Assembly: GCA_963969395.1 (NCBI GenBank)
Contig: OZ017805.1
Location: 5,332,001 to 5,396,000 of the forward strand
Direction: 5' to 3'
Length of the DNA stretch: 64,000 nt
DNA from: Pseudoscleropodium purum
Lineage: Eukaryota; Streptophyta; Bryopsida; Hypnales; Brachytheciaceae
A program made the translations under genes and the position numbers. Of this stretch, positions 1-58,875 are shown in pieces; the stretch's first letter is position 1; each line of letters starts with the position of its first letter. The notes beneath the pieces are model-generated. The model made no database searches, had not been told where the DNA came from, and saw only the letters and a program-made list of their open reading frames with translations.

Positions 1-745
1 TCCGGTCCTGGAAATCCGTCCTGACCAATCCGGTCCGGATGGTCATCATGTATCCGTAATCCTATCCGGTTTGGTTTTGCCTCTGTTTCACCATCAGAGG
101 GATCGCCACTTACATTTGAGAGTGGTAGGCCCACCACTCCTTCCGTGACTTATAGTAGCTGAAGACCCACTGTCCTACTTCCTAAACTCCTAAGCTAATC
201 CGGATCCGGTTTGGTCCTTCACAACAACCCAGATAGCAATCCGGGTTGTAGGTCACACAAAGACCCCACACTCGACCCTCTCATACTACAACGACCTTGA
301 TGCTACTTCCGATCCGTGCGAAGACAAGTGGTTACAAGTGTACCCGTCCGTTCCAACATCAACTAAAGTTCTTCCATTTACCAACTAAGGCGGTAAGACC
401 TCACAAGAGATCGGACACTCAACCGGATTTCCCACCCGGGAGTTCTAGCGTAGCTAAGGAATCCCTCCCTACCCGCCTAGCCTAACAACAGCTTTCTCAC
501 CCGGAATCTTAAACTCTAGACGTGCTGAGGAACTAAGTTCACTCCCAACTCTTAGATACCTACTCACATGCACTTAGGATCGGAAAATAAACACCAAGGG
601 AAGAAATCACTCGCAAACCGGCTCGTATTATCCTAACTCCACATCATACAATCCTGTCGCGCTGGAGAGAGACACACAATGAGGAGAAGAGAAAGGTACA
701 AGAAATTTGCAAAATGAAGACTCCCAGTTCCTATCGCAGGAACCG

Positions 746-754
746 ATTTATATA
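746..754 (-). promoter_or_regulatory. Second TATA box in giant LTR (P2)
   Basis: The minus strand reads TTTGTATATAAATCG downstream of the ORF stop. The same box is intact in copy 2 (29809-29817) and copy 3 (47592-47600). It may be the start site for genomic retrotransposon RNA, which would place the ORF inside a very long U3. Confidence 0.45.
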
Positions 755-904
755 CAAAGGGTAAAAACCCTAAAAGCACAAAAAGGAGCGGAAAACCCGT
801 GGGGGTCCGCCACCACCCTAATCTAACTTCCGGCTAACCTAATACTGTTGAGCCGGATCCGGATCCGGATCCGCTCCTACTCCTAACTGAAATCAAAATC
901 CTAT

Positions 905-2563
905 CTACTCTACAACCCTAGATCCTATTGTCGGGCTTCCGCTCTCCGGAACCAGCTCCTCGAAGACTTCACTCAAGTTCCGGTTCCGTTCCCCCTCCGC
1001 AGGGTTAGATCCGGGTGAAGACTCCAGGTCGATTGTAATATCCGGTCTCGTGCCCGGATTCTCGGTCCGTGCTGACTTCTTGGACTTGGGAGTCCAATCC
1101 TTCCTATCCTTCGGAACGGTCGCATCCGGAAAGGAATCCGGTAGCGAGAGGTCCGAAAGATGTATCCCCTTGGAGCACGTTGCTCCAGTCAGCTTCCGGC
1201 TGCTTTCCTCAATCTGGTCTGCAGCCTTCCGTCCCTCCATCATCGCCGTCTCCACCTGCTCAGCAAAGTCGGTGAGAATCCGGACCATCCGGGAACCGGA
1301 TAGTTTCTTCTCCTCGTGCATCTTCTCGTCGAAGAGCTTCGCTTTGGCGGCGGCCGTTCCGGTATCTCCCAGGATGGCCTTGATCTGCTCGGCTATCTTC
1401 CGAGTCTCCTCCGCCATCTTCCGGGTGGCCGTCACGTCTTCCCGATAGGCAAAGAGAGTTGCCTTCAGGGTGTCCACCTCCTCCTGCAACCGGCGGATCT
1501 CCGCTTCCTGTTTCCGGGTCTCTTCCGGATTGGTGATGCACTCCGCCACCTGTTCCGCCAACTTAATGTCCGGTGGCGCATCTACCAACTTTTCGATCGC
1601 CGAAAGCATTCTGTGCTTGACCTCCCAATCCGCCCTGATGTTGCAAAGGAGGTTGATAAGACCGTTGAACGGATCTTGCATTTCCGGGTCTTCCCCGGAA
1701 ACGGTCTTCTCGGCTTCCGGTCTCTCTTCCGGGGCCGGTTTGTTGTGACCGGGAGGCGTCCCGCGCTTGTTTGGAGGCGTCAACTTCTGTCGCTTGATGG
1801 GCGGCATCGGCTCCTCCTCTTCCTCGCTCAACTCCCGGTCTGAACCGAAATCGGACTCCGCCTCGTCATCCGTTTTCGACTCCCCATACTTCAGGAGGAC
1901 TTCTCGAGTCCTCCACACCTTCTCCTCCGCGTCGGTGAGGACTTGGTTCTCCCGATAGAGGTGGAAGAGGTAAGGGCACACTAGACTGGCCCTCTTCTTC
2001 CCAACTCTACTAACGAGCTGGGCCACGAGATCAAAAATGATCCGTGCCCAGTCCACTTTCCAGGTACCACTTAGGGCACCGAAAATCGTGTTGCCCAGGG
2101 TGATCGTCACCCTGGTCGGCTTTTCCGGGTGAAGGATCGGAACCAAGAACTGCAGGAGCTGACGGTGTCGGTCATCCACGCAATCCTCGACCGCGTATCC
2201 GTCCTTCGGGTTGACGGCCCCCTGGAACTTGCCTTGGACAAACTCATCCTTCCGGTTTGCCATTCCTAACCCTCCTGCCCGGAAACCGTAAACACCTCTC
2301 CACATTCCCTCGTTCCAGCGGATGGGAGTTCCTCTCACGGTGTTGTCAAACTAGTTGGACAGTTTTCCGAGGAGTTCCTTGACCATTCTCTCCTCCCTAA
2401 AACCCCAGGGTTTCTCGGCAAACCCTAGGCAACCCATAGAGGTGAGATCCTCCATGAGTTGAGACTTTTTCGGCTTTGTGGAGGGAATAACCGGAATGAC
2501 TTTCCGGAGCTTTACCTCGCCTCCAGAGGGACTCGCTGGTCTAGACCTACGTAGCGGCGGCAT
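905..2563 (-). pseudogene. LTR-internal ORF, family 1, copy 1 (one in-frame stop)
   Basis: About 552 codons run from ATG at 2563 to the stop at 905, with a single in-frame TAG at 2351-2353. Copy 2 reads Gln there, so this is a simple CAG to TAG change. The product has a conserved N-terminal globular region (motif MGCLGFAEKPWGF near residue 45), a middle region LLQFLVPILHPEKPTRVTI, an acidic stretch, a Lys/Arg-rich nuclear-signal-like stretch (PPIKRQKL), and a long C-terminal coiled coil (repeats like EEVDTLKATLFAYRED). It has no zinc knuckle, protease or polymerase motif. It is homologous to the ORF of the family 2 LTRs. Function unknown; a gag-like or nucleic-acid-binding accessory role is only a guess. 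Confidence 0.7.
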
Positions 2564-2728
2564 TCCCCCTTCAATCTATCTCACTCTCTCCTAGCCGCAC
2601 GTCCCGTTCCTCACGTTCTCTCTCCGATCTCAATCGGAATCAAAGCCTACAGCACACAAACGCGAAAACTCGACCACGCGCACTCAAGCTCGAGTTTCTA
2701 AAAGGGGGTGCAACAGTGAAGGCTCCTC

Positions 2729-2737
2729 CTTATATAG
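2729..2737 (-). promoter_or_regulatory. TATA box upstream of LTR-internal ORF (P1)
   Basis: The minus strand reads ACTATATAAGGAGG here, about 170 bp before the ORF's ATG at 2563. The box is also present in copy 3 (47224-47230) but damaged in copy 2, which reads TATTAAAGG. Confidence 0.5.
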
Positions 2738-2992
2738 TCTCTGGACCCTTTCCAGTTTGGTCATCATGAATCCGGTTCACCATCATAATCCGGTCCTAGA
2801 CCTAATCCGTGTTGCATTCCGTTTCCGTCGTTAGTTACTCCTGACCGGATTAGATCCAAGAGGCCCACTACTTCATATTCTGAGCTAATTTTGAGTTTTC
2901 CTTCTCCACCTAATTGGATCCGGTTCCCTAATGGCTAGTTTCCGTTCCTATTTTGGTCCATACTAAGAAAATCAAAATTTTAAGCTGCGACA

Positions 2993-4359
2993 ACTCCCGG
3001 CCATCCATGCCTTCCAACAATAAGATACCACTGGGCAACACATTCTTCACGCGAAGAATGGTCCGTCCAACCTTGACATCCAACGTCGTGGGTGCCTCAC
3101 GCTACAAATAAACGTAATCCCCCGTGGAAAAACGTCGCAAGTGAGGTCGGTAGGCGCCGCTACGAATGCGAGCGTACCGTAGTGTGTCGCAATGCTGAGC
3201 AATGAATAAATTCTCCATGGCCATCGACATGGCCCGCTTGAAGAACTCCGCTCGGTCACGCAAACATTGGATCCACACCTCTGGATCATCCAAATCCACA
3301 ACAGGAGCCAACTTCTCCTATATAGAACATGGTAGAATGGGCTCCCGTTCGTATAACAACTGATACGGATTGAAAGCAGCTAGGGAAGCCTATCGACTAA
3401 ACCGATACCCCATGGCGATCCATGGTATCATCAGATCCCAATCACGGTGGCCACCTTGGAGTAATCCATACTTCCGTAGGTCTCGTTTCACGCTCTGAAC
3501 CACACGCTCCGCCAAACCGTCCGCTTTCGAATGATCCCGAGAAGTGGTACGATGGTCAATCAAAGCCTTGGTACACAAAGCTTCAAAAGCCCCAAGGAAC
3601 TCTCGCCCTTGATCAATCAAAACCTCAGCTGGGGCTCGAAAATGAGCCAACACTTGGTTGAGGAATGCCATGGCCGCCAACTCTGAAGAGTTCTGTGGAA
3701 GAGCCACAAGCTCAATCCACTTGCTGAAATGCTCCACCATCACCAAGACATACTTGGCTCCACGTGGAGTCACGACAAGTGGACCAGCAAAGTCCAAGGA
3801 CCAACGACAGCCCAATCCCATAATGGGCAAAAGTTGCAACTGTGGTGATAAAGTGTTGAAGCTGGATTGCACTCGATCATCACCTCACACCGTGAAACAT
3901 AAGTGGCGACCTGCTGATACATGCCGGTCCACCAATATTGGCTGCGCAACATCGAATGAGTCTGTCGCACACCAAAATGACCAAGGTCTTCGTGTACTTG
4001 CCGTACCAACGAAGCCCTCTGCTCTGGCCTGGGAACTATGCGCCTAGTCCCATCCGGTCACACCCGAAATATAAGGCTGTTCTCCCAACGAAACCTTGTT
4101 ATCCGGTGTCCAACTCGATCGCGCTCCATAGTCGAAAGCGCAGGTGGAAGCATCCCATGTTGTAGCTTGTGCAAGACTGGAATGTCTTCCCACACATCGC
4201 TAACAACTTGGGCCTTGTCTGGTTCCTCATCCGTTGTCAAGTCAAACAACATCGATGCGGAGCTAGACATCAAGGTGGGATAAGCCGCTACATGCCACCC
4301 CGGAACCGACTCCCTATCACAATCCCCATGCCACCTAGCACCAGTCACATCCTCTTCCG
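2993..4359 (-). pseudogene. Gypsy integrase, frameshifted and truncated at its C-terminus
   Basis: The zinc-binding part contains HEDLGHFGVRQTHSMLRSQY and a downstream Cys-rich segment (3890-4010). A frameshift near 3865-3885 separates it from the catalytic core. The core has Asp in RWSLDFAGPLVV (about 3780-3800), Asp in VLIDQGREFLGAF (about 3600-3625), and Glu in DGLAERVVQSVKRD (about 3500-3520), a DDE triad. The C-terminal domain has GDYVYL and the SH3-like ILRVKNVLPSGILLLEG, and stops at the giant LTR boundary. Stops occur at 4058, 3390, near 3319 and near 3103. No chromodomain is seen. Confidence 0.88.
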
Positions 4360-4760
4360 AAGGACTTGGATTGCGAGAAAGACCATCTGCATCCAAGTTG
4401 GTGATGCCGGCCCAATGTACAACCTCAAAATCATACTCTTGAAGCAACAAAGCCCACTTGGCAAGCTTGCCTGTGAGCTTGTCAGACTCCATGAGCCACT
4501 TCAAAGGCTGGTGGTCGGTCACCAACGTAAAACGTTGCCCATACAAATAAGGCCTGAAATGAGCTATGGCCCAAACCGCTGCCAAAGCCTCCCCCTCATA
4601 GGATGAATAGTTGGACTCCGCATTGTTGTTGCTCCTAGAAGCAAAAGCAACAACATACTCCCGTCCTTCCTCATCCTTCTGAGTCAATACTGCACCCAAT
4701 CCCACCGCACTCTAGTCTGTGTGCAATTGAAAGGGCCGTGTTGCATCCGGACGCCGCAAT
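4360..4760 (-). pseudogene. Gypsy RNase H
   Basis: Ty3-type RNase H motifs are AVGLGAVLTQKDEEGREYVV, AFASRSNNNAESNYSSYEGE, WAIAHFRPYLYG and TLVTDHQPLKWLM, ending near ITNLDADGLSRNPS. It removes RNA from the hybrid. The usual D-W-S at its start reads D-stop-S near 4708 (TGG to TAG). Confidence 0.88.
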
Positions 4761-5866
4761 ACAGGAGCTGAACCGAGCTTCAGCTTCAAGGTAGCAAATG
4801 TATGCTCCTGCTCGCGTCCCCAAGTCCATGGTTGATCCTTTCTTGTGAGAATAGTCAACGGTTTAGCAATCAAGCTAAAGTTCTTGACAAATCAGCGATA
4901 GTAATTCGCCAAGCCAAGAAAAGCTCGAAGCCGTGACACGTCGGTTGGGGCAGGAATCTTTTGCAATGCATCCACCTTGGCCTGCTGTACGCCAAGACCC
5001 TCTAGAACAATCATGTGTCCCAAATATGGCAATCGGTCGTAGAAGAACTTGCACTTGCCATGGTGCAAACACAATCCCCACTACCGTAATCTCTCAAATA
5101 CCTTCTGAAGATGCCTCACATGCTCTTGTGGGCTGCTACTAAAAATGATAACATCATCGATGTAGCATCAAGCAAATGGTAAACCGGTCAACACCCGGTC
5201 TACCACCCTCTGAAACTCAGCAGGTGCGTTCTTGAGGCCAAATGGGAGAAACTTCCAATGGTAGAGTTGATCTCTCCCATCCAGATCAACTCCCCAGAAT
5301 GCAGTCTTCACTCGGTCATCCACCATCAATGGTAATTGATGATAACCAGACCGCAAATCTAGAGTACTAAATACTCTAGCATGGCCCACCGCATCAAATA
5401 ACTCCTCTGGCATGGGCATGGGATACCGGTCTAACTTGGTCTTGCGGTTGACCGGTGTATAATCGCCATACATCCGTTTCTCCGTCCAATTGCCAAAGAT
5501 ATCCTTCTTTGATGGCATAACTGTGGCACAAGCATATTCACCGTTAGAGAGCTCGATCAAGCTGGCGGCCAACAACTCCTGACAACAAGTTTGCATGCCA
5601 ACTTTCTCTGAAAGACTGAGCTTATACGAGTGTCGGAAGATCGGGTGGTCGTCGTCCTACTCAATGTGAATGGGTTTGCCTTTATAGCCCTCCAAATCAT
5701 GGAGACTAAAGGCAAAACAGCTGCGATATGAACGTATGAACGCTCGCACCCTTCGTGCCTTGGCACTAGTAAGATGTGGCCCTAACTCCAAAGGCCAATC
5801 ATCAAACTCCGTGGTCTCCTTCTCCACCGTAGAAGACTCATTACATACCGGCACGGCCGATGATTG
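4761..5866 (-). pseudogene. Gypsy reverse transcriptase
   Basis: Recognisable motifs are STLDLRSGYHQLP, KFLPFGLKNAPAEFQRVVDR, and CYIDDVIIFSS (Ile replaces the more usual Leu of YLDD), then LGHMI and RLRAFLGLANYYR. The catalytic aspartates are present. In-frame stops are at 5867-5869, 5657-5659, 5168-5170 (directly before CYIDD), near 5086 and near 4891. It copies element RNA into DNA in the particle. Confidence 0.9.
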
Positions 5867-6149
5867 CTACTTAGTAGCAAAGAGGGCATTCATGCCCCCA
5901 ACCTTCTCACTCACGGGATCCACATAAAATCCCATATCGTGATGATAAAACCGGGAAAAGATATCCCCAGCATTCTCTCTACCAAAGTTCTCGGCCAAGG
6001 CTACAAAGACACGCTGAGCATGAAGCTCCTCATCTACGTGCCTCTCCAAACGAAAAAGCAACTCTGCTTCCTCGCTCTCTGTGAGATGTGGCACCGCTGC
6101 CCCCTGACCATCAGAGTCTGCCCCCAACATGTGTGGCTGGTCACGCGAA

Positions 6150-7138
6150 TGACGCTGAAAGGCGAAACAGAGGCCACAAACCCAAACAAGAGTGTTGAGG
6201 TCAATAGCTTGACCCAACAAAGAACGACGTTGGCCCTCAGAGACATCCGGTGCTGCAGTGGTGCCTGTCAAAAAGCCCATGGCCCGCTCCCTCTCATTGG
6301 CAGAAGGCTCCTCGTAAGTTTGGGAAGTAGAGTCCCAAACCATACCCGGACCGCGTGTCCTAAAGGCAAAAGATCCAGGGTAGCACATCAAAGTGGGAAA
6401 TGCCCTCCGTGTGAAACCAACGCGGTTTACCACAACCAAAGGTGGCTCATCATCCTTGGTAACCTCTGTGGAAACACAATGGTCGTCCAAGATGTCATCC
6501 ACCTCACGCCGCACAGGTCGCTGCACTTGTACAAGTGTAGAGGTGAGCGTTGCCGATGATGCCAAGTTGGTCCAAATCCAACGTGGCCGATGGGCGTAAG
6601 AGCCCAACGCCGCGACATCAACATACGTGGGGGGACCAAGAAGGTGATGGATGTATGCCCCATCCTCACGCACCTTCGTCCGTGTATCCTCCAATGGAGG
6701 TACATTCTCAAAAATGTACCTCGGTGGCATTGATTGGTGGGTAATCCACCACTGGATGAGCCTAAGCAAATCCGCAAAGAGCCCCGATCGTGGATCATCC
6801 AAGCCACGTCCACTGCCCGCCTGTGAATGGCCTTGGCAAGGCCATCTGGCAATCACTAAGTCCACGTGACCCAATCGGCGAAGATCATCCTCACTAATCA
6901 AGGTCACATCACGTGGCAATTTACCAAAATACCCTCAAATCGCAGAAGGTGGTAACTGCTCTGGATACAATGCCAAAAGACGTTGGATGTGATGGTAAGC
7001 GGCACGGTTGGCCGCAAAGCCACTATCCACATGAATGTACCATTGTACTTTGAGCTCGGCTTCTAACACCGCCGCTAGCCCTATACCAATGCCGGAAAAG
7101 AGCTCCACGAGGGTAATACCCTCATCTGGTGGACGCCA
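6150..7138 (-). pseudogene. Cytosine-5 DNA methyltransferase domain inside the gypsy polyprotein
   Basis: All core C5-methyltransferase motifs appear in the standard order. Motif I is ITLVELFSGIGIGLAAVL (7070-7117) and motif II is near VDSGFAANRAAYHH. Motif IV is VDLVIARWPCQGHSQ, with the catalytic Pro-Cys-Gln at 6833-6841. Motif VI is PPRYIFENVP, with Glu-Asn-Val at 6701-6709. Motif VIII is SYAHRPRWIWTNL (6566-6600). Motif IX is like NERERAMGFLTG (6260-6300), and motif X LLGQAIDL is near 6200-6220. The Cys and Glu needed for catalysis are present. The order is not the permuted one of plant DRM enzymes; motif VIII resembles DNMT3-type enzymes. Target-recognition sequence is short. One in-frame TGA lies near 6952. 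It sits between protease and reverse transcriptase and presumably methylated DNA when intact. Confidence 0.92.
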
Positions 7139-7860
7139 CTAAATAGTGCGAGCCAACAATGGGGTAGAAGAATACTCTGAGTAATGCGAAGCATCCAAAG
7201 CATCCACAATCTTCCGACTGCGGTGAGTGAGCTCCAATTGAGTCCTCCAAGGTGGAACTAGATCCTTGCAATGACGAGGAGGGATTTGTGGTGCTACGTG
7301 CTCCCGTGATTCAGCTACCCCTGACATAAAAGCATATGTCTCCTCTAAAAGCGTAGAACCACATGGCAAATTGGATGCCAAAGTGCTGCGCCCAAACATA
7401 GCATCCGCCGTAGGAGTCACTATGCTAGATGCGAAGACAACAGGGATGAGCTCCTTGCTGCCATCACCAGCAGACCACCCAGGCCTAATCCAAGCCTCCT
7501 CTGTCCAGTTATCCACCCCAAAGTCGAGTGGATAAAGTGCCTGTTGACCCACCAAAATGTTGTAGTTGGTGGCACCAGTCACAACGCACTGAAGAGAGAC
7601 ATGTGAAAACAATGGACCAGATCCCACGCCAAACATCAACTGTAATAGATGTCAGGTGTACCCCATGGCCTTCTCCGTTCCCCTAACCAATGTGACAATT
7701 GTGAATGGGCAAGGCTCGAGGTCTAAAGTACCTAGACCCAAATCTTGGGCTAGTTGTTTGCCAATCATCACTTGCTGAGCCCCGGAATCCAACATAACAC
7801 ATAGGGGAGTAGCTCGAGTGGGGTTGCCATCCGTACGGCCAACCACCATGACTCTGTCGT
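7139..7860 (-). pseudogene. Gypsy aspartic protease region
   Basis: The active-site motif LCVMLDSGAQQV lies near 7765-7810, followed by a C-terminal part with GATNYNILVGQQALYPLDFG. It would cleave the polyprotein. In-frame stops sit at 7652-7654 (TGA) and 7139-7141 (TAG); the latter lies directly before the methyltransferase, but the frame continues unchanged and the same change type occurs elsewhere in the element. I therefore read it as decay, although a programmed stop here cannot be excluded from one copy. Confidence 0.75.
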
Positions 7861-9865
7861 CATTCACCAAACGTATCACCTCTGGACGCACACTACGTCG
7901 CTCCCATGCCGACCGGGCTGCAACATTAGACAAATAAGCCACTCCAGAGATCAAGGATTGATCCTTGGATGACTGCTCCATAGGTGTGGAAGTGGCATTG
8001 GCCTCAAATGCAGAAATAGTCTCCGTTGCCAACTTGGCCCGCATTGCCACCAAATCCTCCTCAGTGGATGGAGCCGTCATTGCCTGTGACACCTCCAACG
8101 ACGAAATGGGCACCTTGCCTTCCAACATACTACCCGCCAAGTGGAATACACCGGATGGTTGAAAATCCGGTGTGAGAAAGTCCACGCCAGCAAACACCGG
8201 CAACTGCAACACCTTATACGCCAAGGTGTGTGCAGCATCTCCACGACTAGAAGAAACCGGGGGGACCGAATTCAATGTGGGAGCGGCAGTAGAAGAAGCC
8301 GCATCCGTGATGCTGAACGAAAGAGGTAGCTGGGACTGACCAATGTGGTCCGGCAAACCCACATGGCGTGAACGATTACTACTACCCGGCACAATAGAAG
8401 AGGGTGCCACTGCCTGTGCAATGGTCTGAGCATGAGTGGCAACCGTTGCCACCACCTCCCCTGAAGCACCATACAAGTAGCGATCTAAGGCTAAAGATGA
8501 GCCTTGACCCCTCACCGCAGGCCGTGTGTCAGCCACTTGCCCCAAAGAAGCCATTGCGCTCATCTGCTTCTTTAGCTTTGCCAATTCGGCTTGAAGTGAT
8601 TTCACAGCCTTTGATCCGCCACCTGAAGACGTCAGGTGCTTCTTAGGATGACGAATGAAGCAATTCTCATCATTGTGGTCGAGCTTGCCACAATGAGAGC
8701 ATGTCACAAGCTTCTTCCCCTTGCCCCCAGTCTTCTCTGCAGGTTTGGCCGCCTCGATCTTGGGCTTGGTCTTCCCCGCCCCTACCCCCTTCTTCTTGGC
8801 ACAATTGGGGTCCCCTTTGGTGTGACCGGCCTCTCCACAAGCCCAGCAATACACAACCTTTTCGGGTTGTGCCTCCGCCAAACTACCCGTAGCTGTAGCA
8901 AGCTTCTTGGGCTTGGGAGCCTCTAAAAGCAACGTGACCAAGTCTGTGGCCTTGCTCACGCCTAATGCCCAGTCAAACGCTTCCACCTCAGCGAACGCCT
9001 GAGCCAAGGTCGCGTTGCCGCCGTATTGGAAGAGGAGGTGCGGGCTGATCAACTCAACCATCCGCTTGTCTAGCTTGGAGATAAAAATCTTCACAAGCTG
9101 ACGTTTCGTGAACACATCACCAGCCTCCGTTGCCAACCGTGACAATCGAGTATACATAGTGTGTGGGGTATCCTCCTTCTCACGTCGGAAATCCTAGATG
9201 CGACGCATCTGATCATGCCGATAACCCCCATATTCCATCTCCAAATGCGCCATAAATTGCGCCAGAGGATTGAAGCGAGGCGGAGGACCAACTGCCTCTA
9301 ATGTCGCCCGTGTGGCTTGAGCCAAACGTGACATGGCCCCCAAGCCGGAACCCTCCTCATCCTTAGGCGGATCGCCAAAAAGAGGAGCTCGGGCAACCGC
9401 AGCCTCCTTGAGTGCAGTCATCAACTCCACACGATTGCGCCAGTAGTCCTCAACCGGGCGCAATTCCTCTGCATGCGATGCAATCCACCTCCCGTATGTC
9501 TGAAGCGCCTCCAGCTCCAAATGTTGTGGCAACAACTCAAATGCGTACCAGTCGTTGAACGACGGTGTCCGCTGGCACTTCTCCTTCATCCATGTCTGGA
9601 ATCGGAGTTGCCAATCGGGCAAGGAGATACCCCCAGTCCATCCCGAGAACCTGTCTCGCACGACATGACGAAAATCATCCTCCATGTTGCCAAACGTGCC
9701 CACACTCCACACTCGAAGCCTATGATCGGTATCCAACGCCGAAACAGGCTCAAAAGCCTCGTCGGTATCCGACCCTGGCCCAAAGTCTGCGGTGGAAACA
9801 CTTTCCGGGTGGTCTAGTGAGGGGGAGCGGTAATACCGACTCCTAGTACTCACCATAAACAACAA
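7861..9865 (-). pseudogene. gag: Gypsy gag with two CCHC zinc knuckles
   Basis: The capsid-like region runs from the start near 9865 (a likely ATG begins MVSTRSRYYRSPS) through motifs such as SLPDWQLRFQTWMKEK. It crosses one in-frame TAG at 9194-9196. Nucleocapsid follows with two knuckles: CWACGEAGHTKGDPNC near 8800-8850 (last spacing one longer than canonical) and CSHCGKLDHNDENC near 8660-8702 (canonical CX2CX4HX4C). A Ser/Ala-rich linker leads to the protease. Gag packages the element RNA and forms the particle. It is in the same frame as protease and methyltransferase. Confidence 0.85.
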
Positions 9866-10077
9866 CCACCAAGGAAACTATCTACGGGTACTATCTAAAA
9901 GGTAAGGGTATGGACGGGCAACCTGCACTTGCAAAATCACCAAGCTATGTGGATCACCGGTCATCACCTCCGGCTACCACAAGTCCAACCACAACCCCCC
10001 ACATAAAAAGGTCTTGCCGGCCATTAACCCGACTTCACCCCTACAGTACCCTATCACAATCTAAGACAACAAAAACA
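9866..10077 (-). other. Gypsy 5' leader remnant
   Basis: Non-coding sequence before gag. I find no convincing complement of a tRNA 3' end here, so the primer-binding site is lost or beyond the break at 10078. Confidence 0.4.
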
Positions 10078-18621: not shown

Positions 18622-21600
18622 CTATGGACGCCAATCCACATCTCCTCTAACCTCAGCCCCACTACTCTCTCCCACAGCTCTTCGTTCAAAATCTTCATTA
18701 TCGGAGTCATCTTCATTGTTGGAATCAAGTATCGTTGTCTCCTTCAAGTCTTTTCTCAAAGTAGGTTTACTCCCTTCTTTCAAATTTAATTTTTCTTTTT
18801 TTTCTTTTGATAGAATGATTAAAGGCTTTTTGAATAGGAACCTTTCTTTTCTTTCTATTTGACAAAGTAGCAACATTTTCATCAAGAGGGGTCCTATTCT
18901 TCACTGGAGAGATAACAAAAGGTTGCATTTCTCTTTTCGCTTTCACATTACTCAATTCTTGAACCATCAATCTCGATGTAGGGTCGACATGTCCGTGAAC
19001 GGTTATCTCCACTTTGGCTTTCTTTTGAAGTAATAGAGTGCCGTTTGTTGATTTGATGGATTCTTGCGCCATTCCTTTTCCTAAAATGCGAGCACGCAAA
19101 GATGCCAATGGCATCCGATCACTATCCGTATCACTTAGGCTTGTAGGTGATGACGCTACTTTCCGTAGATTACCGCCTGTAGAAATTTCCTTGGAAATGT
19201 TCATTAGGCGTTTTCCATATCCAAAGCTCTGAGAATCATTCAATCGTGTGCTAACAGACTTCAACGGTATTGGTGGAAGAGCACTAGATCTCGGTACTTC
19301 AAAAATTGACTTCATTGGCTTTTTTCCTTTATCACTCTTCATAATTGCCGAATTTGTGACTGCCATCCCAAGTGAATCATTATTTTTCTCTACCACAATA
19401 TTTGGTTCCCCCTCATCACCACTATTGTTGCCCACATCTTTTGGAACGTCCACCTCCATGACCGCATCTTCTCTTTTGTCGTTTCCTTCCACTACATTTA
19501 ATGTCACAGATAGAGATTGAGAAATTAGAACTTCTTCATTTCTCCCATTATCACCAATAGCATTCTCATTGATTTTCACCTCTTTGGCAATAGCGTTTGC
19601 CTTTTCCAATAGAATGTTTTCGCTATTCAAGAATCCCATTCCATTGCAATATGCAGTTAAAGAAGGTAGATTCTCCTCTACCTCTACATTGTCCTTGTCT
19701 TCATAAAAGATATATGCATTGTTTGCATTGTCGAGAACAACATCCTTACAGTTTAGATGATAATCATGCGCATCATTCACCAAATTGGGAAAGTCTTGCA
19801 TAACGTTTTCATCTCCCCACGCTATCGTACGATTGAAGTCATCATCGCCATCTACAACTGAAAGGGCCCTTTCCAAATCCTTGTCATCATCGTTTTCTAA
19901 TGTCGCCCTATCTGAATCCTCTGATTCCATCGAATCCACATTATCATTATACCATTTTTATTCATCTTTTTCCTTCGATGCGTTTAATACTTTGGAATTG
20001 GTATACACGTATACCAAACCCGCTGCTCTCTCCGGCTTCAATTTATTTCGAGATTTGTTGTGAACAAAAGAATAGTTGCTCCAATTCTGTTTACATGAAG
20101 ATGATGACACCGGTTGAGCCAATATCCTCTTTGCTAATGGAGCTATAAACTTGCTACATGCACCTTCAAAATCCCACCAAGCATGCGCGGACAACATTTG
20201 TTCTCTCAGATTCAACATATTGTGGAATGGAGGTTCCTTGTGTCAGAAAGCCACAAATTCCTTCACCACTAGTGCATATTCATCCGGTGTACATATTCTC
20301 TCCAAAACTTTCTTACATCCTGACACTGCATCTATGTCATCCGCTAGCTCTTTGTCATGAAGAAGGTATGGATTCAAAAGAGCTGCAGCTGATTGGAGAT
20401 CGTTGTCCACCATTCTTCTTCGGGCATAAAAAGACTATACCAATGGAATTGCAAGTTCTTCTAGCAAACAAAATGGTGGACTTTGTAATCCGTTCACGTG
20501 CTTCTCTAACTTCCTCATGATATGCAACACTTTCCTCATGTATGGTGATTTTGAATCCAAATCGCGGAGTGCACATATGATTGGTTCAACTATCTCCACA
20601 TAATTGATGAACCGATACCAAAAATGGTCATTAAGAACAATTTTCTTCACCGCTAAGGCCAAGTCTTTTAGTTGGACTTTAGCTCCACGTTTCTTCTTGA
20701 GAGTATGTACATACTCAACCCATTGCGGATCTACCACCGTTTGTTCCAATGCTCCTCTCAATTTTGTCAAACACTCCATTATGATAAATTTAGAGGCGAA
20801 CCTTGTATCCCCAGGCATTAAGAGACCAAGATTTGGCGAATACTTTCGCAATAGAGCTAGCGGCATATGTCTCTTTCTGAGAAATTTAGCTACAAGAACT
20901 CCTTTATCCAATTTGGAAGCAATCCATTTCTATGCAGCCCAATCCTTCAACAACAAATTCAATGCATGTACCACGCACCCTTGGTAAAAAATATGAGGAT
21001 ATTTTGCAAATATTACATCCCATGCGGATGGATTCATGGGAGCATTATCCGTAGTTATTAACACGACGTTCTTGGACCCCACTTGTTCAATGAACTTTTC
21101 CAACACAGCTGCCAAGTACTCCGCATTTTTTTCACAACCACTTGTATCCACAGATCCAAGAAATTCTTCACTTGCGGATGATACAAGCATGGCATTGATG
21201 AGAGGTCGATTAGTCACTGAGCTCCATCCATCAATGGACAATGTTGCTCCAAATTTTCGAATGCTATCTTCGGTCTATGCATTCAACTGTGTCTGAATGT
21301 TGGTCTTTGCCTCATTCAACAATTTGTACCGAAGGTCGTGGTATGAAGGAGGAATTTATGGCCTACCGAACGCAGCCGTTTTCTTCACTGCTTCTTTAAA
21401 AGCTGGATTTCGAGCCACGGAAAATGGTATGTTTGCCGAATAAAAAAAATTGCCCACACTGAATGTAATTTGCGTCTATGACCTTCAAACCCATTCACTA
21501 AGCTGCCTTGTCTCTGAGGCCTAGAACTTGATGCCCTCGGGGTTTCACGTTCACCAGAAGCTTTCGTACTCAAAGTCATTTCAGTTGTGGCACATACCAT

Positions 21601-28935: not shown

Positions 28936-29808
28936 TTACTTTCCGGTCCTACATCTAGAACCAGAAATACCACCACACCGGATAACTACAGACCGGATTA
29001 CTCCTTCCGGTCCTACTTACTATCCGGTCCATACAATTACCCAAATCCCAGGATCTCACAACTTCCGATCCTGGAAATCCGTCCTGACCAATCCGGTCGG
29101 GATGGTCATCCTGTATCCGTAATCCTATCCGGTTTAGTTTTGCCTCTATTTCACCATTAGAGGGGTCGCCGCTTACATTTGAGAGTGGTAGGCCCACCAC
29201 TCCTTCCGTGACTTATAGTGGCTGAAGACCCACTGTCCTACTTCCTAAACTCCTAAGCTAATCCAGATCCGGTTTGGTCCTTCACAACAACCCAGATAGC
29301 AATCCAGGTTGTAGGTCACACAAAGACCCTACACTCGACCCTCTCGTACTACAACGACCTTGATGCTACTTCCGATCCATGCAAAAACAGGTGGTTACAA
29401 GTGCACCCGTCCGTTCCAACATCAACTAAAGTTCTTCCGTTACCCATACGGGTGGTGAGACCTCACAGGAGATCGGACACTCGACCGGATTTCCCACCCG
29501 GAAGTTCTAGCGCAGCTAAGGAATCCCTCCCTACCCGCCTAGCCTAACAACGGCTTTCTCACCCGGAATCTCAAACTCTAGACGTGCTGAGGAACTAAGT
29601 TCACTCCCAACTCTTCGATACCTACTCACATGCACCTTGGATCGGAAAATAAACACCAAGGGGAGAAATCACTCGCAAACCAACTCGTACTATCCTAACT
29701 CCACATCATACAATCCTGTCGCACTGGAGAGAGACACACAATGAGGAGAAGAGAAAGGTACAAGAAGTTTGCAAAATGAAAAACTCCCAATTCCCATTTC
29801 AGGAACCG

Positions 29809-29817
29809 ATTTATATA
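29809..29817 (-). promoter_or_regulatory. Second TATA box in giant LTR copy 2 (P2)
   Basis: The minus strand reads TTTGTATATAAATCG, identical in core to copies 1 and 3. Confidence 0.45.
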
Positions 29818-29968
29818 CAAAGGGTAAAAACCCTAAAAGCACAAAAAGGAGCGGAAAACCCGTAGGGGTCCGCCGCCATCCTAATCTAACTTCTGGCTAA
29901 CCTAATACTGTTGAGCCGGATCCGGATCCGGATCCGCTCCTACTCCTAACTGAAATCCAAAATCCTGT

Positions 29969-31628
29969 CTACCCTACAACTCTAGATCCTATGGTCGGGC
30001 TTCCGATCTCCGGGACTAGCTCCTCGAAGACTTCACTCAAATTCCGGACCCGTTCCCCCTTTGAAGGATTCGATCCGGGTGGAGACTCCAGGTCGATGGT
30101 GATATCCAGTCTCGTGCCCGGAGTCCCAGTCCGTGCAGACTTCTTGGACTCAGGAGTCCAATCCTTCCTATCCTTCGCAATAGTCGCGTCCGGAAAGAGA
30201 TCCGGTAGCGAGATATCCGAAAGATGAATTCCTTTGTCGCACGTCGCTCCAGTCAGCTTCCGGCTGCTCTCCTCGATCCGGTCCGCAGCCTTCCGCCCCT
30301 CCACCATTGCCGTCTCCACCTGCTCAGCGAAGTCCGCGAGAATCCGGACCATCCGGGAACCGGATAGTTTCTTCTCTTCGTGGATCTTCTCGTCGAAGAG
30401 CTTCGCTTTGGCGGCGGCCGTTTCGGTATCTCCCAGGACCGCCTTGATCTGCTCGGCTATCTTCCGAGTCTCCTCCGCCATCTCCCGGGCAGCCGTCACG
30501 TCTTCCCGATAGGCAAAAAGAGTTGCCTTCAGGTTATCCACCTCCTCCTGCAACCGGCGGATCTCTACTTCCTGCTTCCGGCTCTCTTCCGGATTGGTGA
30601 TGCACTCCGCCACCTGTTCTTCCAACTTGTTGTCCGGTGGCGCACCTACCAACTTTCCGATCGCCACAAGCGTCCTGTGCTTGACCTCCCAATCCACCCT
30701 GATGTTGCAGAGGACGTTGATAAGACCGTTGAACAGATCTTGCATTTCCGGGTCTCCCCCCGGAAACAGTCTTCTCGGCTTCCGGTTTCTCTTCCGGGGC
30801 CGGTCTGTCTTGACCGGGAGGCGTCCCGCGCTTGTGTAGAGGCGTCAACTTCTGTCGCTTGATCGGCGGCATCGGCTCCTCCTCTTCCTCGCTCGACTCC
30901 CGTTCTGACCCGGAATCGGATTCGGCCTCGTCATCCGTTTCAGACTCCCCATACTTCAGGAAGACTTCCTAAGTCTTCCACACCTTCTCCTCCGCGTCGG
31001 TGAGGACTTGGTTCTCCCGATAGAGGTGGAAGAGGTAAGGGCACACTGGAGTGGCCCTTTTCTTCCCAACCCTACTAACGAGCTGGGCCACGAGATCGGA
31101 AATGATCCGTGCCCAGTCCACTTTCCGGGTACCACTCAGGGCACCGAAAATGGTGTTGCCGAGGGTGATCGTCACCCTGGTCGGCTTTTCCGGGTGAAGA
31201 ACCGGAACCAGGAATTGCAGGAGCCGACGGTGTCGGTCATCCTCGCAATCCTCGACCACGTATCCGTCCTTCGGGTTGACGGCTCCCTGGAACTTCCCTC
31301 GGACAAACTCATCCTTCCGGTTCGCCATCCCTAAACCTCCTGCCCGGAAACCATAAACCGCTCTCCACATTCCCTCGTTCCAGCTGACGGGAGTTCCTCT
31401 CACAGTGTTGTCAAACTGGTTGGACAGCTTTCCGAGGAGCTCCTTGACCATTCTCTCCTCCCTAAAACCCCAAGGTTTCTCGGCAAACCCGAGGCAACCC
31501 ATGGATTTGAGATCCTCCATGAGTTGAGACTTTTCCGGCTCTGTAGAGGGAATAACCGGAATGACTTTCCGGAGCTTCACCTCGCCTCCAGAGGGACTCG
31601 CTTGTCTCGACCTACGTAGCGGCGGCAT
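29969..31628 (-). pseudogene. LTR-internal ORF, family 1, copy 2
   Basis: Same protein as 905-2563. ATG is at 31628 and the Gln codon that is a stop in copy 1 is intact. It is broken instead by a TAG near 30966 (after KVWKT) and a frameshift near 30750-30780. The C-terminal coiled coil (30000-30600) is otherwise well kept. The upstream TATA box is damaged. Confidence 0.7.
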
Positions 31629-32070
31629 TCCCTCTCCAATCTATCTCACTCTCTCCTAGCCGCATGTCCCGTTCCTCACTTCCTCTCTCCGATCTCAACC
31701 GGAATCAAAACGAACAGAACACAAACGCACAAACTCTAAAAACTCAACCGCGCACGCTCAAGGTCGAGTTTCTAAAAGGGGGTGCAACAATGAAAGCTCC
31801 TCCTTTAATAGTCCCTGGACCCTTTCCGGTTTGTCATCATGAATCCGGTTCATCATCATAATCCGGTCCTAGACCTAATCCGTGTTGCATTCCGATTCCA
31901 GCGTTAGTTACTCCTGACCGGATTAGATCCAAGAGGCCCACTACTTCACATTCCGTGCTAATTTTGAGTTTTCCTTCTCCACCTTATCGGATCCAGTTCC
32001 CTAATGACTAGTTTCCGTTCCTATTTTGGTGTATACTAAGAAAATCAAAATTTTAAGCTGCGACACATCT

Positions 32071-46964: not shown

Positions 46965-46969
46965 ATATT

Positions 46970-48622
46970 TGTCGCAGCTTCAAATTTTGATTTTCTTAGC
47001 ATGCACCAAAATAGGAACGGAAACTAGCCATTAGGGAACCGGATCCGATTAGGTGAAGAAGGAAAACTCAAAATTAGCACAGAACATGAAGTAGTGGGCC
47101 TCTTAGATCTAATCCGGTCAGGAGTAACTATCGACGGAAACGGAATGCAACACGGATTAGGTCTAGGACCGGATTATGGGTGAACCGGATTCAAGACGAC
47201 CAAACCGGAAATGGTCCAGAGACTATATAAGGAGGAGCCTTTGCAGTTGCACCCCCTTTTTTTAGAAACTCGACCTTAAGCGCGCGTTGTAGAGTTTTTG
47301 CGTTTGTGTGCTGCAGGCTTTGATTCCGGTTGAGATCGGAGAGAGAACGTGAGGAACGGAACCGGAACTTGAGTGAAGTCTTCGAGCAGCTGGATCCGCA
47401 GAACAGAAACCCGACAATAGGATCTAGGGTTGTAGAGTAGATAGGATTTTGATTTGAGTTAGGAGTAGGAGCGGATCCGGATCGGGATTCGGCTCAACAG
47501 TATTAGGTTAGACCGGAAGTTAGATTAGGGTGGCGGCGGACCCCCACGGGTTTTCCGCTCCGCTTTGTACTTTTAGGGTTTTTACCCTTTGTATATAAAT
47601 CGATTCCTGCGATGGGAACTGGGAGTCTTCATTTTGCAAATCTCTTGTGCCTTCCCCTTCTCCTCATTGTGTGTCTCTCTCCAGCGCGACAGGATTGTAT
47701 GATGTGGAGTTAGGATAGTGTGAGCCGGTTTGCGAGTGATTTCTCCCCTTGGTGTTTCTTTTCCGATCCTAGGTGCATGTGAGTAGGTATCTAAGAGTTG
47801 GGAGTGAACTTAGTTCCTCAGCACGTCTAGAGTTTGAGATTCCGGGTGAGAAAGCCGTTGTTAGGCTAGGCGGGTAGGGAGGGATTCCTTAGCTGCGCTA
47901 GAACTCCCGGGTGGGAAATCCGGTCGAGTGTCCGATCTCTTGTGAGGTCTTACCGCCTTAGTTGGCAAACGGAAGAACTTTAGTCGATGTTGGAACGGAC
48001 GGGTACACTTGTTACCACCTATCTTCGCACGGATCGGAAGTAGCATCAAGGTCGTTGTAGTATGAGAGGGTCGAGTGTGGGGTCTTTGTGTGACCTACAA
48101 CCCGGATTGTTATCTGGGTTGTTGTGAAGGACCAAACCGGATCCGGATTAGCTTAGGAGTTTAGGAAGTAGGACAGTGGGTCTTCAGCTACTATAAGTCA
48201 CGGAAGGAGTGGTGGGCCTACCACTCTCAAATGTAAGCGGCGACCCCTTTGATGGTGAAACAGAGGCAAAACCAAACCGGATAGGATTACGGATACATGA
48301 TGACCATCCGGACTGGATTGGTCAGGACGGATTTCCAGGACCGGAAGTTGTAAGATCATGGGATTTGGATATTTGCACAGAACGGATAGTTAGTAGGATC
48401 GGAAGAAGGACTAATCCGGTCTATAGTTATCCGGTGTGGTGGTATTTCTGGTTCTAGATCTAGGACCGGAAAGTAAGATTGGGATACTGACTTAGCTTAA
48501 CTACTTAATAGAGCTAGATACTTTACAGGATCTCGTGGGTTCGATCTTTAGAGTCACTTAGTTATACTCTAGAGCGATTTTTGGGAGTATAATGGGGAAT
48601 TTACCTGCCCTGTGCTGCGACA
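46970..48622 (+). mobile_element. Giant solo LTR, family 1, copy 3 (internal deletion)
   Basis: The plus strand starts TGTCGCAGC at 46970 and ends GCTGCGACA at 48622, flanked by ATATT and ATATC (4 of 5). It has the same P1 TATA (47224-47230), leader, tail and P2 TATA (47592-47600) as copies 1 and 2. It lacks about 1,618 bp that include almost all of the internal ORF. The join at 47353-47359 reads GGAACGG, a 7-base word found at both deletion edges in copy 1 (986-992 and 2604-2610, complement). Confidence 0.88.
48488..48562 (+). other. tRNA-like box A/box B segment in LTR copy 3
   Basis: CTTAGCTTAACTACTTAATA, AGAGC, then TCGTGGGTTCGATC. Same as in copies 2 and 4, about 70-130 bp from the LTR end. 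No closed cloverleaf. Confidence 0.35.
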
Positions 48623-56075: not shown

Positions 56076-56829
56076 TGTTAAAAGAGCATAGGCTTCAGTT
56101 GAGTTTAGTAAGACTCATCTTTAGGAACCTTGATTGTGTATTACTTTTAAAATGTCTCAAAGTTTATTTTTGAATACAGTGACGTAATTCTCCCCAATCT
56201 AAAGATGTGATTTTGTGTTTTTATGATGTAAGGTAATGAAATCTAACTAAAGTCTTTCCAAAATTCACCTTTCAATTTTTCCCTCAAATGAACTTACACT
56301 ATTAATGAGAATTAGTGGTTCATTTCAAAAACAACCACTTTTAGCACATTGTATATTTGTGGTTAGTTTTAGGATTTGCATTATTGCTATGGTATTATTA
56401 AATGCAATACAAATAAAATTTAAAATTATTAATTCAAACAAAATTTGAAATTCCATTTTTTTTTTGCCATGAGTCCTTATACCATGAAAAAGAAGCCCCA
56501 TGCATCCTTCCCTATTGACGACTTTTTTATAGTATCCAAAAGTAACCAAGGGACAATTGGTTCTTAAATATCTCACTGTAACAAATAAAATAAAATCCGA
56601 CACAATAATTTAGAATATATGCATTATAACTTAATACACACCAAATTCCAATGGTAGCTAATTCAACTTATAGTGAGTTCAAAATTTGAAATATAGAAAT
56701 GGTTTGGGTGTTATATGTAAAAGAATCAACCCCTAATATATCATGCATGTAAATCATTGATATTTAAACCCCAAACAATAAACCAAAATTCAGAAGAATT
56801 TATGCATGATTAAATTAATTGTCTAAACT
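56076..56829. other. AT-rich DNA with one degenerate repeat copy
   Basis: No gene. The part at 56440-56560 (CCCATGCATCCTTCCC, TATTGACGAC) aligns with the repeats at 46600, 49720 and 50170. Confidence 0.45.
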
Positions 56830-58411
56830 TCTACAACCTCTAAGTTCAAAATCATTTTATAACCTAAAATAAACAACAAATTCTTGAATTGTTAAATGAT
56901 TATCATCCCATAAACCACTTGATGCTAAAAAAACATTACCTACTACACTCAGTAGTACCAAATCATAAAATCTCATACATGATTTAATAAAGTAAATAAA
57001 TTTAAAGAACCTCTAAATAAAGTTCAGAACCTCTTAAGGCCCTAAACAACGATAAAATTTTCACAAAATAATTGAACTAATAAATTAAAACCCCGAGCTT
57101 GAAGCTTAAAGAAATCACATATTCTATTCAATGAGACAAAAGTAGAAAAACTCATTCAATTTTTAATGATTTTTTTGAAGTTTAAGAGCCACTAAGTTCA
57201 AAATCATCCTACAAACCTAGACAACTGAATTAGTTTTCACTTCATAGTCATTTATCAATTCAAAAAGCCTTTGAGTGTTAGAAAAACTACATGCAACATT
57301 TAGTGGGACCAAAGTAGAGAAACTCATGCAATTTTTAATGATTTTTTTGAAATTTAAGAGCCTCTAAGTTCAAAATCATCCTAAAATGGCAAACAACCAA
57401 AATAGTTTTAAATTCATAGTCAATTATCAATTTAAGAAGTTCTTGAGGCATAGAAACATTACATGCTATATTTAGTGGGACCAAAGTAGAAAAACTCATG
57501 CAATGTTTAATGATTTTCTTGAAATTTAAGAGCCTCAAAGTTTAAAATCATCCTCAAAACCTAGACAACCAAAATATTTTTAAATTCATAGTTGTATATA
57601 AATTCAAAAAGCCTTGGAGGCTTACAAAAACTACATATGGTATTTAGTGGCACCAAAGTAGAGAAACTCTTGCAATGCTTAATCAGTTTTTTTTTCAATT
57701 TAAAAGCCTCTAAGTTCCAAATCATCTTAAAAATGGAAACAATGAAAATAATTATAAGCTCATAGTGATTTATCGATTTAAAAAGTCGCTAATACTTACA
57801 ATAGAGTATTCACATGCTATATTTAGTGGGACCAAAGTAGAAAAATTTATGCAATGTTTAATGATTTAAAAAAAATTTAAGAGCCTCTAAATTCAAAATC
57901 ATCCTAAAATCGCAAACACAACCAAATACTTTAAAAAATATAGTCATTTTTCAATTAAAAAAACTAACAAGGCTAAGAAATACTACATGTTGTATTTAAT
58001 GGGACCAAAGTTGAAAAACTCATGCAATAGTTAATGATTTAAAAAAAATTTAAGAGCCTCAAAGTTCAAAATCATCCTAAAAATCTAGACAAACAAAATA
58101 GTTTTAAAATCATAGTCATTTATCAATTTAAAAAGCCTTTGAGGCTTAGAAGAACTACATGTAGTATTTTGTAGCACCAAAATAGAAAAACTCATGCGAT
58201 ATTTAATGTTTTAAAAAAAATTTAAGAGCCTCTAAGTTCAAATCATTCTAAAACTACAAACAACCAAAAAAGTTTTAAATTCATAGTCATTTATCATTTT
58301 AAGAAGCCAATGATGCCTACAATGGAGAATTTTCATGTTATATTTATTGGGACCAAAGTAGAAAAACTCATGCAATGTTTAATGATTTTTCTAAAAATTT
58401 AAGAGCCTCTA
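56830..58411. repeat. Satellite A array, period about 173 bp (left part)
   Basis: The word CCTCTAAGTTCAAAATCATC recurs at 56837, 57010, 57189, 57361, 57533, 57707, 57884, 58057, 58229 and 58406 (spacings 171-179). Each unit also has ATTCATAGTCATTTATCAAT, GCCTTTGAGGCTTAGAAA, ACATGCTATATTTAGTGGGA and AAGTAGAAAAACTCATGCAA. It is interrupted at 58412 by a giant LTR. Confidence 0.92.
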
Positions 58412-58875
58412 TGTGGAAGTACAAAAACTCAAACCGGATAGGTTAGTCTAGAATTTAGATTAGATAGACTTGCAAATTTCAATTTTTTTGATAACTTCTA
58501 GAGATTTATGCTACACTACGACTATAATAGAAATAGTAAGTTTCCGGGTTGCTAAAATCTTTAGTAATGTTATAAAAACAAGTCCGATACGAATCCAGAA
58601 TCTAGAAAAGTATCGGATTCCCTAAACCTACATTCTAGACATCCAGTCTAAGAAATTAGAAGACCATTAGGGGAATGGTCATCTACCCGTTCTCCACTAG
58701 GAACTGTCGGCCACATGCCGAGTACTTAAACCCACTGCCACTCCTCTTTTTCTCCCTCTTTGCTTGTTGAACTTGATCAACGTATAGTTGAGAGAAAGAG
58801 TGGTGAGTTAATGACCGAGATAGGACGAGACAGAAGGAGTAGTACCGGATTAGGTTTGCAAGGTGTTAGTGATTC

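Follow-up and report, generated by a model that had tools for sequence, protein, structure and literature searches.

Why should a retrotransposon encode the very class of enzyme by which retrotransposons are silenced? This puzzle is raised by a locus in the window, i.e. the whole stretch of 64,000 nucleotides analysed here, in which the minus strand carries from position 9856 to 2993 a Ty3/gypsy copy whose protease and reverse transcriptase (RT) flank a C5 DNA methyltransferase (MTase).

Organization and decay of the element copy

A single minus-strand frame can be followed through a gag with zinc knuckles, a protease with the motif DSGAQ, the C5-MTase, RT, RNase H and integrase (Table 1). The zinc knuckles of gag are of the CCHC type (about 8650-8860, by eye), while a search in Pfam revealed no gag family. 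The protease match to Asp_protease_2 stayed under the Pfam cut-off both in the window copy (E 0.0029) and in the relative L003 (E 0.00078). L003 (CADCWO010000201.1) is filed in a cyanobacterial MAG (Synechococcales) and is almost certainly misbinned plant DNA. RVT_1, RNaseH and rve were all matched in Pfam, giving a Ty3/gypsy pol with a DDE integrase, and for the Marchantia relative P0153 the Ty3-G Gag-Pol structure 7q5b was the second PDB match (1.4e-47), behind an RT/RNase H entry. The window coordinates of RT and RNase H were mapped over from L003. At the integrase C-terminus L003 encodes a PHD finger (6459-6593, E 4.3e-10), a possible reader for integration sites; in some other gypsy elements of plants this place is taken by a chromodomain. 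No Rfam family and no tRNA were detected within the window.

Table 1 Features of the MTase element copy and of the repeat inserted into it (window coordinates)
Feature	Position	Strand	Basis
Preserved part of the MTase element copy	2993..10075	-	blastn with L003 and another copy from the same genome
gag, interrupted by a stop	7811..9856	-	Translation; a similar Met-leader opens ORF1 of L003
Aspartic protease core (DSGAQ)	7667..7810	-	Pfam Asp_protease_2, weak
C5 DNA methyltransferase, DNMT3 class	6130..7138	-	Motifs, Pfam, profile; L003 model
MTase C-terminal tail	5870..6129	-	L003 model: helical, then disordered
Putative leaky stop, TAG (5869-5867) + CAATCA (CAR-YYA readthrough signal)	5861..5869	-	Comparison of copies
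Reverse transcriptase	5009..5485	-	Pfam RVT_1, 5.1e-12 (window), 4.3e-31 (L003)
RNase H	4433..4822	-	Pfam RT_RNaseH, 1.5e-33
Integrase, H2C2 zinc domain and rve core	3528..4027	-	Pfam, E 1e-12
Separate repeat inserted in the integrase C-terminus, outside the MTase element	1..2992	.	92% to 29064-32065

The window copy is dead. Its 5′ end is gone (truncation at 10075), and comparison of 9345-2988 with L003 revealed 14 in-frame stops, one of which is common to L003 and 13 of which are disabling. In addition the integrase has suffered a 1-bp deletion near 3881 as well as the insertion of a foreign repeat. The boundary between element and inserted repeat was read by eye; past the inserted repeat, to the left of the window, the element continues with its 3′ part and terminal repeats (L069, down to 8465). 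The inserted repeat comprises window 1-2992 together with L069 9625-9901, about 3.27 kb in all, has TG...CA ends and is flanked by what looks like a 5-bp target duplication in which one base differs (by eye). Members of this repeat family of about 3.3 kb are present in the window at 1-2992, 29064-32065 and 46967-48345; they contain a long ORF (905-2338) of no recognised kind with 165 protein relatives.

The methyltransferase belongs to the DNMT3 class

In the minus-strand frame 7138-5870 the stretches LVELFSGIGIG, WPCQG, ENV, AHRPRW, ERERAMGF and GQAIDLN, which we take to be motifs I, IV, VI, VIII, IX and X, follow each other in canonical order. The earlier note, made from the letters of the window, had placed all motifs in one frame; the order stands, but that frame is closed by an in-frame stop at about 6935. 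The piece downstream of this stop matches Pfam DNA_methylase (E 1.4e-10) and has 63 homologues, the best of them 82% identical over the full length, so that a chance resemblance is unlikely. Among solved structures this piece alone matched M.HaeIII and DNMT3 with modest E-values. A profile of 19 aligned sequences gave a ranking with DNMT3A/B/C on top (about 1e-19), followed by DRM (1e-10), HhaI (1.5e-7), DNMT2 (4e-7) and HaeIII (7e-7); up to E 10 the profile matched 58 entries, and neither DNMT1 nor CMT appears by name among them. The L003 MTase was modelled with AlphaFold at a mean pLDDT of 84, and the 50 Foldseek hits listed out of 1012 (E up to 10) were all chains of DNMT3 entries. The top match, 6f57_D, had an E-value of 5.8e-17 and a TM-score of 0.82 by target length and 0.57 by query.

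By profile and modelled fold, DNMT3 is thus the nearest class, and the enzyme is classified as an unpermuted member of it. The animal enzymes DNMT3A/3B share fold and motif order with it and are its top profile match, but identity in the structural alignment is about 21%, and the element's domain is part of a Gag polyprotein without PWWP or ADD. These two are the companion domains of DNMT3A/3B according to the excerpted text of PMC12344493. An origin from the plant DRM methyltransferases, which belong to the same DNMT3 superclass, was rejected: DRM motifs are permuted, whereas here motif I precedes IV to X, and the DRM profile matched at 1e-10 or weaker as compared to about 1e-19 for DNMT3. 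The earlier note had already read the motif order as unlike that of DRM, and its description of a C5-MTase encoded by a Ty3/gypsy element between protease and RT is borne out by Pfam, motifs, profile and fold alike. Profile and fold are also the basis for a presumed capture of the domain from a host DNMT3, the MTase tree described below having contained no host-DNMT3 row.

In the 19 aligned sequences the P-C-Q and E-N columns of the catalytic site show either no variation or at least 90% conservation, with a single row (P0026) lacking the catalytic Cys. These columns bear on the suggestion that the MTase fold has been retained for another task, e.g. to bind or methylate RNA inside the particle. 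The excerpts of PMC5890265 favour such a role in two respects, since the MTase of a relative from the alga Klebsormidium nitens gave no detectable methylation in yeast, a result called inconclusive by its authors, and RNA methylation has been proposed for a LINE-encoded enzyme. Conservation of the catalytic residues argues against it, as does the assignment to DNMT3 instead of the RNA-directed DNMT2, and we regard another task as rather improbable.

Comparison of the window copy with L003 yielded a dN/dS of 0.10 (0.07-0.14) for the MTase core, in the range of RT (0.09), RNase H (0.04) and gag (0.15). The MTase tail, at 0.61 with an interval of 0.25-1.29, appears weakly constrained. As the window copy is dead and part of its change is neutral, these values are likely upper estimates for the element. 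On these ratios the MTase is under purifying selection.

The methyltransferase recurs in a multi-copy family

A survey of the 313-Mb genome with the MTase as query, in which copies were counted as MTase matches, returned at least 103 matches. Twenty-four of these, including the window copy, are near-full-length close copies (own count; 400 or more of the 422 residues covered, ≥76%) of what is referred to as family 1. The earlier note had proposed to look for intact copies; 3 of the 24 have an MTase without internal stop. Two further groups of copies (families 2 and 3) match the MTase at 51-53% and 55-57%, and in both the MTase is next to RT. The two family-2 copies followed further show gag, protease, MTase and RT to integrase and then, by eye, a PHD-like end; family 3 was read at the MTase-RT junction only. 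Judged from these copies, the MTase is a stable part of the element.

Under one alternative, a host or bacterial MTase gene was accidentally inserted into one gypsy copy. Some bacterial MTases (Streptomyces loci) do share up to 38-44% over 48-101 residues near motif IV. Phage and plasmid MTases (the 10 of 170 and 10 of 34 matches listed) do not exceed 33% and align to no more than 53% of the query, and on these matches a recent bacterial or phage origin was rejected. Accidental local capture is contradicted by the copy survey, given the MTase in 24 near-full-length copies, beside RT in two more families, in metagenome relatives and in named plants; we consider such an insertion as good as discarded. 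In the earlier note, copies lacking the domain were taken as the sign of such an accident; close copies and relatives do carry it, but 7 of 29 listed relatives, dealt with below, do not.

A conserved stop codon separates MTase and RT

In L003 two long frames are in register: gag-protease-MTase with 1346 codons and RT-RNaseH-integrase-PHD with 1047 codons, separated by one TAG. The earlier note had missed this stop, the relatives in land plants and the terminal repeats, which lie beyond the window. Family-1 junctions were read at 29 fetched places and in the window, leaving aside close places without the C-terminus (e.g. those ending at residues 358 or 349), and all 30 have TAG CAATCA. For families 2 and 3, 16 places were fetched, and grouping by match pattern preceded the reading of the junctions. 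Family 2 has TAG CAACCA in 8 of 10 copies, TAA CAACCA in one and a decayed TAG TAACCA in one; in family 3, TAG CAATTA is found in five of six copies and TAA CAATTA in the sixth. In each of the families the stop lies at the same place. Thus the CAR-YYA signal fits 30/30, 9/10 and 6/6 copies, respectively, with YY differing among the families. Ten aligned rows contain 49 further in-frame stops, which served as a control; just 1 of them fits CAR-YYA, and the chance expected from composition is about 0.0012. The residue following Gln is Ser, Pro or Leu depending on the family, which suggests that an RNA signal has been kept and not the protein. On the strength of this comparison, the TAG at 5869-5867 is a feature of the element and not damage. 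L047 has an extra stop of the decay type between junction stop and RT.

The arrangement resembles that of tobacco mosaic virus (TMV), in which UAG is followed by CAA-YYA (CAR-YYA, type I), and the hexamer CAATTA of family 3 is presumably the TMV hexamer to the letter. It differs in that the viral stop splits MT/helicase from polymerase, while here gag-protease-MTase is split from RT, as known from sequence. According to the excerpts of PMC2754532, CAR-YYA is essential for TMV readthrough, which amounts to 32% when assayed transiently and to 6-10% in stable plants, and the type I viruses tested there carry CAA-UYA. This narrower motif fits families 1 and 3, whereas CAACCA of family 2 agrees with the broader CAR-YYA alone. 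LTR elements with readthrough were known before. In-frame stops ahead of pol that are thought to be read through have been described for the rice gypsy element RIRE2 (gag/pol stop; PMC2754532) and for Candida Tca2 (UGA between gag and pol; PMC2194720), and nothing in the excerpts of these sources puts an MTase before the stop.

Alternatively, the junction stop could be a true terminator, with RT being produced via splicing or internal initiation. The replacement of TAG by TAA in 2 of the 16 copies of families 2 and 3 would fit a terminator, and the Marchantia model P0153 fuses MTase to RT without the tail, as a predicted intron would (by eye). Yet L003 has no start codon ahead of the RT core: no ATG occurs in any frame within 350 nt past the stop, and the first in-frame ATG is codon 117, within RT. 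The frame is moreover maintained, and CAR-YYA persists in three families with different YY. A true terminator is therefore very unlikely, and readthrough at this stop is predicted with high confidence.

A stimulating RNA structure 3′ of the stop was considered and dropped, as it is not conserved across copies and control windows are similarly low. The fold in L003 (3480-3620) has a z-score of -4.64; values range from -1.0 to -2.8 in six other family-1 copies, the window copy included, and from -1.5 to +0.3 in eight copies of the other families, and 2 of 14 L003 control windows reach -3.6 and -4.2.

The metagenome relatives P0001-P0004 have the same ATK terminus, and P0005, P0006, P0009 and P0017 end at an apparently corresponding place. 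In contrast, the more distant P0074, P0089, P0101, P0105 and P0127 are predicted single proteins containing MTase and RT, from which it appears that the leaky stop is not general and is confined to part of the lineage.

Terminal repeats and mode of insertion

The repeats follow the order A-coding-B-A-B, a DIRS-like arrangement. The 3′ B-A-B part was present in 4 of 7 family-1 copies examined, namely in 3 of 6 and in the window copy (in L069), which has lost repeat A1. Two of the seven copies have a single B, and one has no recognised 3′ part; in two family-2 copies no such repeats were found within the fetched stretches. The element ends are TG...CA. Duplications of 4 bp, read by eye, are exact in three of five two-ended copies (CTAT, GATA, AATG) and have one mismatch in the other two; of the two single-B copies one has an exact and one a mismatched duplication. 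Single-B copies are what one would expect from recombination between the two B repeats once the element has inserted. In L003 the ends join at the internal B-A joint as GACAGCTGTC, a palindrome. With TG...CA ends and 4-bp duplications, insertion looks like the work of a DDE integrase, the DIRS-like repeats notwithstanding; in place of the tyrosine recombinase of DIRS elements, an rve integrase was found together with these ends and duplications. Repeat identity in three family-1 copies is 95.4-97.2% between the 5′ and 3′ A repeats and 95.3-99.1% between B1 and B2, so that, without a rate being applied, these copies seem to have inserted fairly recently. L003 has a 127-bp overlap (1-127 and 9159-9285) that closes the contig, either as a circular DNA form or as an assembly loop through the A repeat.

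Relatives and known systems

A search with RT found 2905 relatives, and 29 of the 120 listed carry an MTase. Among the 29 listed proteins with more than 150 residues ahead of RT, the MTase is present in 22 and absent in 7 (P0119, P0120 from K. nitens, P0160, P0169, P0178, P0179 and P0182 from Closterium). The latter, with one K. nitens and one Closterium protein among them, argue against a fixed trait. MTase and RT occur together in K. nitens (P0110), in Closterium (P0122, P0135, P0180 among others) and in Marchantia (P0149, P0153), while in Calypogeia fissa they are found in separate models (P0045, P0086). P0152 and P0170, labelled Tetstr1, which we assume to be the chlorophyte Tetraselmis and thus outside the streptophytes, are RT relatives also matched by the HMM of the element's MTase. 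Scans of IMG/VR gave no useful match.

A quick, midpoint-rooted RT tree was calculated from 73 rows covering the RT-RNaseH stretch: L003, 17 rows with MTase, 4 without it despite at least 300 upstream residues, and 51 undecided; P0182 is absent from it. The closest neighbours of L003 in it are P0064 and P0065, with a group holding liverworts nearby. In a group of 65 rows, which includes P0110, all rows with at least 300 upstream residues carry the MTase; the four MTase-lacking rows fall outside, alongside three MTase-bearing rows. In the MTase tree, likewise quick and midpoint-rooted, the 14-row group of L003 is sister to a group with Calypogeia and Marchantia, and the branch of P0110 is left without resolution. 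These trees suggest that a single acquisition of the MTase is likely. P0005 is named as a bacterial DNA cytosine methyltransferase from an Obscuribacterales MAG and looks like plant retrotransposon DNA; such DNA in bacterial MAGs is a contamination trap for MTase surveys.

Two comparable retrotransposons, KnitGypsy-Dnmt3 from K. nitens and SymbioDIRS-Dnmt3 from dinoflagellates, were reported by de Mendoza et al. 2018 (PMC5890265, seen in excerpts). KnitGypsy-Dnmt3 likewise has Gypsy domains, an unpermuted Dnmt3-class MTase in its polyprotein and DIRS-like repeats, for which the same A-coding-B-A-B order is reported, and its Ka/Ks below 0.2 is in line with the purifying selection seen here. As far as its description in the excerpts goes, the window element differs from it in that a TMV-type leaky stop splits MTase from RT in place of one Pol ORF, in the PHD finger 3′ of the integrase and in ends resolved as TG...CA with 4-bp duplications. 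Furthermore, the host there is an alga, while the tree position here is beside liverworts. Because MTase and RT are in the same frame, we regard the element as a variant of KnitGypsy-Dnmt3 rather than a strict member, and by its domains and repeats we assign the window element to a multi-copy Ty3/gypsy retrotransposon of this kind, of which it is a dead copy. SymbioDIRS-Dnmt3 shares the Dnmt3-class MTase in a retrotransposon polyprotein and split direct repeats; it has a tyrosine recombinase in contrast to the DDE integrase found here. Two of its copies methylated CG in yeast (PMC5890265, excerpts).

In the excerpted text of PMC5890265 Marchantia, moss and PHD are unmentioned. PMC12344493, also seen in part, recounts the cases from streptophytes and dinoflagellates and names Copia and DIRS; the excerpts of PMC6453930 hold nothing on MTase-bearing retrotransposons, and those of PMC6317226 contain neither PHD nor methyltransferase. 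Among open-licence papers we found none that describes such elements from bryophytes, a PHD finger as part of them or a leaky stop behind the MTase. New here are thus the liverwort relatives (Marchantia, Calypogeia), the PHD finger after the integrase and the conserved TMV-type stop following the MTase.

Methylation footprint and a model for the enzyme's role

In nine host copies, C-to-T changes private to a copy, their direction being taken from sites where L003 and all other copies agreed, were raised in all contexts, most strongly in CG (115/1962) and CHG (93/1893) and less so in CHH (139/9653), compared with 13/14400 for T-to-C. The comparison of the window copy with L003 showed the same trend. 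This footprint implies that the copies have been methylated. An excess in CG and CHG is what plant silencing leaves, which supports a plant host, and the decay is compatible with any writer enzyme; it cannot tell whose marks these were. Together with the tree position beside liverworts and a 313-Mb genome almost wholly contained in 11 large contigs, the footprint makes a bryophyte, perhaps a moss, the likely host.

The layout suggests how the MTase may be produced and used. Gag, protease and MTase form one frame ending at UAG-CAR-YYA, followed in frame by RT, RNase H, integrase and PHD finger with no start before the RT core. Most ribosomes would halt at UAG, and every Gag precursor would bear protease and MTase; a minority would read through and add RT and integrase, as TMV does for its polymerase. 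Hence each Gag probably comes with an MTase, whereas RT would be obtained through readthrough alone. The MTase would then be packed into the virus-like particle in Gag-level amounts, a step we regard as likely but less certain than readthrough itself. In the particle it might methylate the new cDNA, most likely at CG, ahead of integration, so that the new copy arrives already marked; this last step is put forward tentatively.

Taken as a whole, an element of the KnitGypsy-Dnmt3 type with a leaky stop and a Gag-level MTase and, less certainly, self-marking of its cDNA offers the best explanation of the locus, and we hold it with reasonable confidence. Counted against it are the inactivity of the K. 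nitens relative in yeast, judged inconclusive there, the single-protein relatives, the family-2 hexamer outside the narrower CAA-UYA, the weakly constrained tail and the non-conserved RNA structure. Benefits discussed for such enzymes in the excerpts of PMC5890265 are passing as host DNA, protection of cDNA and self-limitation.

The main competitor is an MTase acting in trans, which would mark host DNA or integration sites or limit copy number, Gag-level output simply meaning more enzyme. Such dosage would indeed provide a surplus, and the heavy C-to-T footprint, strongest in CG and CHG, indicates that copies were methylated; benefit to the host and slowed transposition are also discussed in PMC5890265 (excerpts). 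The plant's own silencing enzymes would, however, leave CG plus CHG decay as well, and K. nitens has a plant-like methylome (PMC5890265, excerpts). Action in trans is therefore considered unlikely, though it has more in its favour than another task for the fold.

The leaky stop provides a measurable hypothesis, in which Gag would set the dosage of the MTase, and methylated cDNA is predicted in particles. Since Marchantia (P0149, P0153), a laboratory plant, is among the carriers, the puzzle is testable there. If true, reverse transcription and DNA methylation would share one capsid, and new copies would enter the genome pre-methylated. The broadest reading is of a green-plant retrotransposon lineage whose DNMT3-class enzyme predates the split of liverworts and the window host and was turned, in the families of that host, by a leaky stop into a Gag-level particle component, with reverse transcription and methylation in one capsid. 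We consider it possible without yet calling it probable.

Elsewhere in the window, an ORF at 20435-20911 resembles a fragment of a hAT-type transposase (by eye), and 56776-58414 and 62303-63650 are tandem arrays similar to each other, in which, judging from match offsets, the repeat unit measures roughly 173 bases.
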